NCBI RefSeq assembly: GCF_016278365.1
Contig: NZ_JADQBZ010000008.1
Span: forward strand, 434,001-498,000
Length of the DNA stretch: 64,000 bases
Origin: Methanolobus sp.
GTDB taxonomy: Archaea; Halobacteriota; Methanosarcinia; Methanosarcinales; Methanosarcinaceae
Direction: 5' to 3'
The translations under genes and the position numbers were made by a program. Below are positions 37,773 to 40,507 of the stretch, one piece after another. Numbering within the stretch: position 1 is the stretch's first letter; every line of letters starts with the position of its first letter. The notes beneath the pieces were generated by a model. It worked only from the letters and a program-made list of their open reading frames with translations, was not told the DNA's origin and ran no database searches.

Positions 37773-37963
37773 GCATTGCTATTTTATTTTATCGAAAAAT
37801 ATGAAGGAAGAGCCACTACTGCGGATAGTTCAGAATGATTTATGACACACATACAGAAGACTCCCGGGGCTACGAAAAGAAAGATTACAAGTAAACACAA
37901 AACTTATCTGCCTGGTAATGCATAATGGGCCCGGCAGAACTACCATTTTTGAAAGACGCACCC

Positions 37964-39016
37964 ATGACCGGAAGAACCCGACTATTCCCATTGAATGAAA
38001 ATAACCTTCGTGATACTTTAAAGGAAGCTGCAGCCATCATTAATGATAGAGGATTGGTAGCTTTCCCAACTGAAACGGTTTACGGCCTGGGGGCAAATGC
38101 ACTTGATGCAAAAGCTGTGCGGGCCATCTTTGAAGCAAAGGGCAGACCTGCCGACAATCCTCTTATAGTACATATTTCCTCAAAGCAGCAATGTTGCAAG
38201 CTCGCCCGGAATATCCCAGAGAAAGCCTTTAAGCTTATGGATAAATTCTGGCCTGGCCCTCTCACACTTATTTTGGAAAGACAGGAAATTGTACCCGATG
38301 TGACAACCGGTGGGCTGGATACTGTAGCCCTGAGAATGCCTGACAATGAGATAGCATTGGGGCTCATCAGAGTATCAGGACAACCCCTTGCTGCACCCAG
38401 TGCTAATCTTTCAGGAAAGCCAAGCCCAACAACCGCACAGCACGTCATCTCAGATCTCTGGGGAAGAATAGATGCTGTTATTGATGGCGGAACCGTAGAG
38501 ATCGGCCTTGAATCAACAGTTATAGACATGACACTGCCGGTTCCTGCCATACTCAGGCCTGGCAGGATAAGTCTGGAAGATATAGAGAAGGAAATTGGGA
38601 GCATAACGACAGGGTATCTGGACGGGAACCAGCCTGAATCAGCGGCTGTCCGTTCTCCGGGAATGAAGTACACACACTATGCGCCCGATGCAACAGTGAT
38701 ACTAATCGAAGGAGCGAGTACCAGCGTAGTCCACAGGATACAGGAGATGCTTAAGACATATGGCTTGGAGGAAGTAAAAGTAGGACTGCTTTTAACGGAT
38801 GAGAGCAATATGGACATCTATCACGATGAACAACTCTCACTGGGTAGTAAGGACAAACCTGCAGAACTGGCCTTTAACCTATTCTCAGGGCTGCGTTCCC
38901 TGGATGCAAGAGACGTAGACATTATACTTGTTGACGGGTCATTCAGCCACCATGGCATCGGTGCAGCCGTCAGCAACAGGATACGTAAAGCAGCCAGCTC
39001 GATCATAAAAGTTTAA
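37964..39016 (+). CDS. Threonylcarbamoyl-AMP synthase, Sua5 type
   Basis: About 350 residues. The YrdC/Sua5 catalytic domain has AFPTETVYGLGANA, KGRPADNPLIVH, SAPSANLSG (here AAPSANLSGKPSPT) and STVID. A Sua5-specific C-terminal domain begins after SPGMKYTHYAP. It makes the threonylcarbamoyl-adenylate used for t6A in tRNA. ATG 37964 gives the usual family N-terminus. An in-frame ATG at 37925 overlaps the stop of a 27-codon frame and may be used instead. Confidence 0.9.
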   Translation: MTGRTRLFPLNENNLRDTLKEAAAIINDRGLVAFPTETVYGLGANALDAKAVRAIFEAKGRPADNPLIVHISSKQQCCKLARNIPEKAFKLMDKFWPGPLTLILERQEIVPDVTTGGLDTVALRMPDNEIALGLIRVSGQPLAAPSANLSGKPSPTTAQHVISDLWGRIDAVIDGGTVEIGLESTVIDMTLPVPAILRPGRISLEDIEKEIGSITTGYLDGNQPESAAVRSPGMKYTHYAPDATVILIEGASTSVVHRIQEMLKTYGLEEVKVGLLLTDESNMDIYHDEQLSLGSKDKPAELAFNLFSGLRSLDARDVDIILVDGSFSHHGIGAAVSNRIRKAASSIIKV

Positions 39017-39043: not shown

Positions 39044-39271
39044 ATGAAAACAGAAAAGAAACAGGTCAGCCAGGAGAAACAGAAGAATATCGCAATTCTT
39101 TACAGGAATAGGAAACTGATAAGGATCAATCTGCTGATATTAAGTTTTGGACTTGCACTTTCCTATCTTGAATATGAGATCGGTGAGCCTTTGCTCTGGC
39201 TTGGGATCATCATTTTCGTATATACCATGGTTACTAATTACATTGCAAGATCAGCATTGAAAAAACTTTGA
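39044..39271 (+). CDS. Small two-helix membrane protein
   Basis: 75 residues: a basic, lysine-rich N-terminus, two hydrophobic helices (INLLILSFGLALSYL and LLWLGIIIFVYTMV) joined by a short acidic turn, and a basic end. AAGGAAAG precedes the ATG. No family recognised. It lies 27 bases after Sua5 and may share its transcript. Confidence 0.65.
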   Translation: MKTEKKQVSQEKQKNIAILYRNRKLIRINLLILSFGLALSYLEYEIGEPLLWLGIIIFVYTMVTNYIARSALKKL

Positions 39272-39419
39272 CTCACCTGATTCAATACTGCAAGAAAACA
39301 TTGCAATTGGTACTGTTAATATGAACTGTGGATTTTGGCAGGGTGGCATTTAAAAGGATGTAACTGTTTTCAGCAATAATGTTTCTTATTCATTTATTGC
39401 CACATGAGACAAATAAAAT

Positions 39420-39540
39420 CTGGTGGTCAGTGTTGTCCTGAGACATCTCAGGAAATAGATATAGTTGCCACCAGGTACCACCTTACTGCGAAACATGGAG
39501 TTAGGAAACAGGCGTGGGAAGATGCCTGTTTCCTTTTTTG
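39420..39540 (+). ncRNA. Putative structured small RNA ending in an intrinsic-type terminator
   Basis: Stem P1 pairs 39420-39426 with 39468-39474 (ctggtgg/ccaccag). Inside it, hairpin P2 pairs 39436-39442 with 39447-39453 (tcctgag/ctcagga). An alternative pairing, 39422-39427 with 39477-39482 (ggtggt/accacc), excludes P1. An exact 11-base terminator stem (39503-39513 with 39524-39534) is followed by six T. TATA-like stretches at 39348-39355 or around 39390 could drive it. No coding frame overlaps. Confidence 0.5.
39503..39540 (+). terminator. Strong hairpin terminator
   Basis: aggaaacaggc pairs exactly with gcctgtttcct across a 10-base loop, followed by tttttt. This is the most bacterial-looking terminator in the window. 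Confidence 0.75.
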
Positions 39541-39655
39541 CGGGTAACTTTTCTATAATAGGACAATTGCAGCGGCAAGGTCTGTAAAACTGCGTTACTT
39601 GACAAGTATCATCTTTAATGGCACCCTCAACGGCAATACTACATGTTCTCTTTAG

Positions 39656-39664: not shown

Positions 39665-40044
39665 CCTACCCCGTTGAACCCGGAGAAAAGCCCTGATGTA
39701 TTCCAGCTGGCATATACTTTACTCAAAGACCGGACCGACAGGTAAGATATTTACTAAAAAAGCAGGATTATTATAATTTACAACCTCCCATAAAAAATGA
39801 GCAGCTTCATGTTTTTAAGAGATTAAGTATGCAATCAACTTGCTACCCATAAAGGAATACCATATCTGCTACCTGAACAGAACCTCCGGAAAGAGTATGG
39901 AACATCCTAAAAATGACAAACAGAACCTTTGTTTCTTATGTATTATACTTAACTTTGATTCTTACTTATTTATTAGATTAAATTCCATATACTCTACCGG
40001 GATTAGAAGAAGGGTATTGGCCGGGATAAGTGGGGAAGGCGTCA

Positions 40045-40273: not shown

Positions 40274-40507
40274 GTGATTCATATCAGAAGAAGTAGAACT
40301 GCCATCAGCGTGGAAATATTAAGGGCTGCCATGGAGGGAGCAAAAAAAACCCATATAGTTTACCGTGCAAACCTTAACTTTGAGGTTGTTAACAGATACC
40401 TTACTATGTTAGAAGAAAAAGGGCTGATAGAGAAAAAAGACAGCCTCTATGTGACAACCGAGAAAGGAAAGGAATTCCAGGAAATTGCACAGGAACTTGG
40501 ATTATAA
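40274..40507 (+). CDS. Small winged-helix DNA-binding protein
   Basis: 77 residues. The sequence (AISVEILRAAMEGAKKTHIVYRANLN, then YLTMLEEKGLIEKKD, then YVTTEKGKEF) is the archaeal PF14947-type winged helix, common in methanogen regulators. It starts with GTG at 40274 behind GAGAGGAG. It consists of the DNA-binding domain alone. Target unknown. Confidence 0.85.
   Translation: MIHIRRSRTAISVEILRAAMEGAKKTHIVYRANLNFEVVNRYLTMLEEKGLIEKKDSLYVTTEKGKEFQEIAQELGL

Follow-up and report, generated by a model that had tools for sequence, protein, structure and literature searches.

A conserved small RNA of Methanolobus with a predicted seed for the ribosome-binding sites of surface-protein genes

The archaeal genus Methanolobus carries an intergenic small RNA in which the motif GUACCAC(C) is repeated, a sequence complementary to ribosome-binding sites of genes for secreted proteins; this repeat is the main feature that the original prediction for this DNA had missed. 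Judged by sequence, it is close to certain that the locus holds a conserved small RNA gene. The conservation and fold of the RNA, the specificity of the promoter-like motif in front of it and the enrichment of its exact complement at this class of ribosome-binding sites were all established by computation. Expression of the RNA, its pairing with these mRNAs inside the cell and an outcome of repression, rather than activation or altered stability, are our inferences. In the reading that we favour with moderate confidence, it is a trans-acting antisense RNA that would mask the ribosome-binding sites of surface-protein mRNAs and repress them together.

Locus, transcription unit and fold

In the window (the whole 64-kb stretch of Methanolobus sp. 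DNA that was analysed) the RNA gene lies downstream of two protein genes, on the same strand; across the genomes that carry it, the distance is 100-250 nt. The features of the locus are:

37925..39016, + strand: sua5-type threonylcarbamoyl-AMP synthase gene, the upstream neighbour (Pfam Sua5_yciO_yrdC, E 2e-60, and Sua5_C)
39044..39271, + strand: smp75, gene of a 75-aa membrane protein with no Pfam match, the constant upstream neighbour
39381..39398, + strand: conserved promoter-like motif GTTTCTTA-NNNN-TTTATT, which precedes the RNA copies examined
39412..39539, + strand: small RNA gene as matched by covariance model R1, with a predicted transcript start near 39415-39420
39418..39427, + strand: 5' arm of the outer stem, AUCUGGUGGU, carrying GGUGGU, a copy of the core of the target ribosome-binding site (from folds and a stem search in 31 RNAs)
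39436..39453, + strand: inner hairpin (arms 39436-39442 and 39447-39453), differing in sequence among species
39467..39476, + strand: 3' arm of the outer stem, GCCACCAGGU, with the first, buried CCACC motif
39475..39484, + strand: proposed seed GUACCACCUU, the second, exposed motif and perfect complement of AAGGUGGUAC at ribosome-binding sites
39503..39539, + strand: intrinsic terminator-like hairpin with an exact 11-bp stem, followed by six T at 39534-39539

The sua5 gene is syntenic at every RNA locus whose sequence extends that far, and smp75 is present in 97 of 112 Methanosarcinaceae genomes. Five genomes of the same genus with homologues of 74-88% identity share the gene order sua5, smp75, RNA, winged-helix gene, sufC, sufB. 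The sequence GTTTCYT(T)A followed by TTTATT is found 5' of the RNA copies, and of the 12 occurrences of the related pattern AGTTTCYTNANNNTTTATT in 27 Methanolobus genomes, all but one are at RNA loci (11), before a first or a second copy. Its spacing from the GGUGGU arm is roughly that required of an archaeal TATA box; in a study of Methanolobus psychrophilus, promoters lie about 19-22 nt from the start (PMC5378194). The motif probably acts as a promoter of the RNA's own transcription unit, and motif and terminator hairpin together delimit, as far as can be read from the DNA, an independent intergenic unit. An independent small RNA was one of the possibilities raised in the original prediction, and it is now well supported by conserved position, fold and promoter motif.

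The nested two-stem structure and the terminator that had been described are both in place: the outer stem has 10 bp, the inner hairpin has 7 bp and a 4-nt loop, and the terminator stem, AGGAAACAGGC / GCCTGTTTCCT, is exact over 11 bp (13 bp counting one G-U and one A-U pair) before its six T. On both strands of the 64-kb window, this terminator is the sole case of a perfect 10-bp hairpin directly before T6, and no gene follows it for about 700 nt, again as had been noted. The 126-nt strand folds at -49.9 kcal/mol (z -5.5), a value equalled by none of 200 shuffles; the upstream domain without the terminator reaches a z of only -2.2, with 7 of 200 shuffles as good, so single-sequence folding backs mainly the terminator. 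The rest of the RNA is supported by the sequence and predicted fold that recur in related genomes. Searches with Rfam 15 gave no family at or above gathering score in the window, and permissive settings yielded chance-level matches only.

Two other candidate features of the locus were rejected. An open reading frame at 39404-39547 has no Pfam match, and homologues of 128, 129 and 137 nt do not keep its frame. Base pairing between the inner loop and the start of the winged-helix gene next to the RNA, spotted by eye, is not conserved in the sequences. Further downstream, positions 39935-40035 of the window form another non-coding block of strong conservation, which has a promoter-like motif similar to that of the RNA, ATTCTTACTTATTTATT, and a conserved stretch, TACCGGGATTAGAAGAAGGGTATTGGCCGGGATAAG; lying about 250 nt before the winged-helix gene, it could be a second RNA or the leader of that gene. 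The gene itself (40274-40507) encodes a 77-aa winged-helix protein (HTH_45) that is 97-100% identical in near species; in the other clade it stands about 9 kb from the RNA, often in two copies.

Distribution of the RNA and its constant part

The RNA is present in 25 of 27 Methanolobus genomes, in 23 of them by covariance model and in two (G001 and G022) by direct reading, with the motifs in the expected place. Model R1, built from the six nearest genomes, has matches with E up to 1 in 14 of the 27; it places the RNA at the same position in G008, G013, G014 and G017, finds a divergent form in G009 and G018, and misses much of a second clade. Model R2, built from this divergent clade, adds further species and reveals a second tandem copy in eight genomes, and direct reading places the divergent form downstream of sua5-smp75 in M. 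profundi, M. vulcani, M. bombayensis and one further species. The two genomes that lack the RNA at the locus are G015, where it is lost and an apparent insertion-sequence transposase gene is found, and G005, where sufC directly follows; elsewhere in G005 the RNA was found neither by R1 nor by R2, the latter run over four 20-kb stretches. Over 186 genomes of the order, R1 matched Methanolobus only, apart from one weak, chance-like match in G082, and the matches of the pattern GGTGGT...ACCACC...ACCACC outside Methanolobus look like chance; downstream of smp75 in other genera, R2 and direct reading did not find the RNA.

The constant part of the RNA is the repeated GUACCAC(C) motif rather than the switch; it occurs two or three times per molecule and persists even in copies that have lost the stem. 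In the RNA of this genome, the outer stem buries one copy (mean unpaired probability 0.18) and the other, GUACCACCUU, is exposed (0.70); GUACCACCUU is invariant in the six nearest genomes. The same arrangement, with the first motif buried (0.04-0.29 in nine RNAs) and the second open (0.46-0.75), holds for the near-clade RNAs with the exception of the divergent G017, while the relative exposure of the two copies varies in the other clade.

The original prediction had looked to covariation and to preservation of the stems in related strains for support. The outer stem is nearly invariant in the six nearest genomes, where 8 of its 10 pairs never vary, so that covariation says little about it; farther away it is compensated, in G002 (GATATAGTGGTA/TACCACTATATC) and in copy B of G024 (GGCAT/ATGCC). 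Four pairs of the terminator stem have changes on both sides in the six genomes. Controls limited to these six sequences gave modest figures: the number of double-changed cells was reached by 1 of 500 shuffles and the covariation score by 36 of 500. Many tandem second copies lack the outer stem and its GGUGGU arm and have been left with the repeated motif alone (ATACCACCAGCGTACCCCCAACGTACCACC in G025 is an example), which points to the motif as the constant part and to the stem as its holder. Second matches of R2 mark tandem second copies at loci L134, L135, L136, L138, L140, L146, L149 and L153, to which L080 is added; many of them carry GUACCCCC beside GUACCACC and have no GGUGGU arm.

Ribosome-binding sites complementary to the seed

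The complement of GUACCACCUU is AAGGUGGUAC, and targets were sought by exact pattern searches, with secretion judged from N-terminal hydrophobicity (signal peptides). In its own genome, AAGGTGGT stands shortly before an ATG at 27 places, many of them inside genes. Three of these sites continue with AC, a short A-rich spacer and ATG, and all three start secreted proteins that end in IPEFPTI(A/V)LPVAAILGLAFFMQRRKE and belong to PEF-CTERM (NCBIfam TIGR03024, E 2e-8 to 1e-9), an archaeosortase-type sorting signal. The pattern GGTGGTAC, which gives the seed complement GGUGGUAC at the ribosome-binding site, precedes the ATG of seven real genes, and all seven encode secreted proteins: four PEF-CTERM proteins, of the 13 that the genome encodes (hypergeometric p 1e-8 for an assumed total of about 2800 genes), and three others, one with a fasciclin domain. 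Without the AC, only one of eight AAGGTGGT sites precedes a secreted protein (Fisher p 0.0014); the genes concerned include a TrmO-like protein, a helicase, an asparagine synthase, ribosomal L10 and Cas1. The RNA presents a seed, open by prediction and invariant in near species, that is complementary to the translation starts of unlinked genes.

Across the genus, 60 stretches with AGGTGGTAC were read out, of which about 41 are plausible ribosome-binding sites by our reading; about 35 of these precede secreted proteins, 25 of them PEF-CTERM and about 10 others. The site is shared by unrelated secreted proteins of fasciclin-containing, Big_3-like and PKD-like type. At PEF-CTERM starts picked by a script that scores Shine-Dalgarno motifs, GGTGGT among them, and with counts that are not independent given paralogues and orthologues, GGTGGT occurs in 8 of 12 sites of this genome against 13 of 707 in the pooled background (p 6e-11), and in 25 of 38 sites of the RNA-bearing genomes G000, G026 and G025 against 3 of 217 background genes; in these three it is the most enriched 6-mer at PEF-CTERM ribosome-binding sites. 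Among the genes of G023 it stands at the ribosome-binding site in 10 of 490.

The duplex of the seed with AGGTGGTAC-type sites is predicted at -16 to -18 kcal/mol, compared with about -9 for the anti-Shine-Dalgarno. When the RNA is co-folded with leaders of PEF-CTERM genes, its outer stem remains closed and the site is taken by the free motif, although co-fold energies of the whole RNA fail to separate targets (-9.0 to -15.0) from controls (one control at -11.5). Some PEF-CTERM sites read GGGGGTA(C) and match the GUACCCCC of second copies; the correspondence is only suggestive, as G000 has one such gene and no second copy was found there.

TIGR03024 matches number 13 in G000, 13 in G026, 15 in G025, 13 in G005, none in G015, 8 in G036 and 1 in G130, with none or one marginal match in seven other genera sampled; within this sample, then, an abundance of PEF-CTERM genes and the presence of the RNA are mainly features of Methanolobus. 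G015 has neither the RNA nor a PEF-CTERM match. G036 has PEF-CTERM genes and no RNA was found in it; its readable sites are mostly different, one having GGTGGT. G005, with no RNA at the locus, has GGTGGT in 5 of 12 PEF-CTERM sites, a share not significantly below that of RNA-bearing genomes (p 0.18). Conversely, G023 has the RNA and its seed, yet the 578 kb sampled, a quarter of the genome, contain no PEF-CTERM tail; such a blank would have a chance of about 0.02 if the genome had 13 PEF-CTERM genes.

Proposed mechanism, rival readings and known small RNAs

In the proposed mechanism, the RNA would stand alone, transcribed from a promoter of its own immediately 5' of the GGUGGU arm and ending at the strong terminator. 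The arm would pair with the first CCACC motif and keep the RNA folded, while the second copy, GUACCACCUU, would remain open to serve as the seed. A duplex of 8-10 nt between this seed and (AA)GGUGGUAC, the ribosome-binding site of secreted surface-protein mRNAs, mainly PEF-CTERM, would block ribosome access, so that the targets are repressed jointly. Our confidence goes no further than moderate because of G005 and G023, the non-independent counts, the start-picking script and the signal peptides judged by hydrophobicity. A broader version, which we regard as speculative, extends the mechanism to a genus-wide site code of two classes read by one RNA family: tandem copies with diverged seeds GUACCACC and GUACCCCC would read GGUGGUAC and GGGGGUA(C), which would mark PEF-CTERM and other secreted proteins, and the 5' arm would mimic the target site and keep the spare seed buried.

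The antisense reading has one serious competitor, possible though not probable in our view, in which PEF-CTERM and other surface genes have inherited the GGUGGUAC site and keep it for another reason such as translation rate, leader folding or a binding protein; the RNA would be real and do another job, or descend from a leader, and its complementarity would have no function. The sites that G005 retains without an RNA at the locus, the RNA that G023 retains without PEF-CTERM genes in the sampled part and the paralogues among PEF-CTERM genes all speak for this, whereas it sits poorly with an exact complement kept two or three times in the RNA as the rest diverges, with the mostly different sites of G036, and with the same site before unrelated secreted proteins. 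A short single-stranded motif repeated in all copies would also suit an RNA that binds a protein or acts as a sponge, the ACCACC repeats being the protein site and the stem merely presenting them; we think this unlikely, as it leaves the match to the ribosome-binding sites of one functional class unexplained.

The two remaining alternatives go back to the original prediction. It had allowed for a 3' UTR regulator of the membrane-protein gene, and the RNA does always lie directly downstream of smp75 on the same strand, as expected of a 3' UTR with terminator or of an RNA released from the smp75 transcript. The conserved promoter motif, its recurrence before tandem second copies and the wide occurrence of smp75 in other genera without the RNA make this origin improbable. 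It had also described the layout of a riboswitch or attenuator, with an alternative pairing that excludes the outer stem. Such a pairing can form, between GGUGGU (39422-39427) and the second ACCACC (39477-39482), so that GGUGGU is able to pair with either of two conserved copies, as a toggle between two stems would need; but the fold containing it reaches only -43.5 kcal/mol against -49.9, and at 6.4 kcal/mol worse it would be a minor form at equilibrium. It leaves the terminator stem untouched, many second copies have no such arm or stem, Rfam offers no match, and the gene-free stretch after the terminator means that the RNA is not in the leader of a controlled gene; a switch is accordingly the least credible of these readings and very improbable.

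The bacterial small RNAs MicA and RybB regulate outer-membrane proteins, depend on Hfq and bind varied sites. If our proposal is right, the Methanolobus RNA would resemble them in pairing an exposed seed with the translation starts of many surface-protein mRNAs; it would differ in that its targets share one exact ribosome-binding-site motif, and no homology is claimed. In the literature searched, no title or abstract of a paper naming PEF-CTERM connects it with a small RNA. Genome G026, in which the RNA match runs from 2,749,268 to 2,749,396 on the minus strand, is presumably that of M. psychrophilus R15, so the RNA may be among the small RNAs already listed for this strain of the same genus. 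That list holds 195 intergenic small RNAs, nine of them cold-induced and carrying a 'cold box', and the main text of the study gives no targets (PMC5378194).

A close precedent is sRNA162 of Methanosarcina mazei, an intergenic RNA that has stem-loops and covers the ribosome-binding site of a target mRNA by means of a single-stranded region (PMC3510493). It belongs to an archaeon of the same methanogen family and shares this plan with the Methanolobus RNA, in which masking is predicted. In sRNA162, the single-stranded linker is the most variable part and two mRNA targets were shown (PMC3510493); in the Methanolobus RNA, it is the exposed motif that is conserved most, and this motif matches a site common to many surface-protein genes. 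Homologues of sRNA162 are reported only in Methanosarcina (PMC3510493). Since sRNA162 already masks a ribosome-binding site, the kind of mechanism is known; what appears new, as far as the tests reach, is the RNA family together with the shared site. Plausible target sets are available for few archaeal small RNAs; in the present case one exact motif predicts, in cultured species, a whole regulon made up of PEF-CTERM proteins and other secreted surface proteins. Should the prediction hold, an archaeon would coordinate its surface proteins post-transcriptionally through one small RNA, as bacteria do with outer-membrane proteins. The new family comes with a model for annotation.

Some further genes bearing related sites deserve mention. 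The ribosome-binding sites of glycosyltransferase-like genes (MTIVA-IPAFNEE...) in two species (L285 and L427) likewise contain GGTGGTA, and the products of these genes are not secreted. In two species (L284 and L307), AAAGGTGGTACGT is followed by a frame of 35 codons that encodes a single hydrophobic segment and may be a small membrane peptide or a broken longer gene. Secreted repeat proteins (ACYLNDV...) of several species (L271, L290, L295 and L308) have a conserved leader, CTACACTTAAATGTAG, directly before GGTGGTAC, and this leader is able to form a hairpin.
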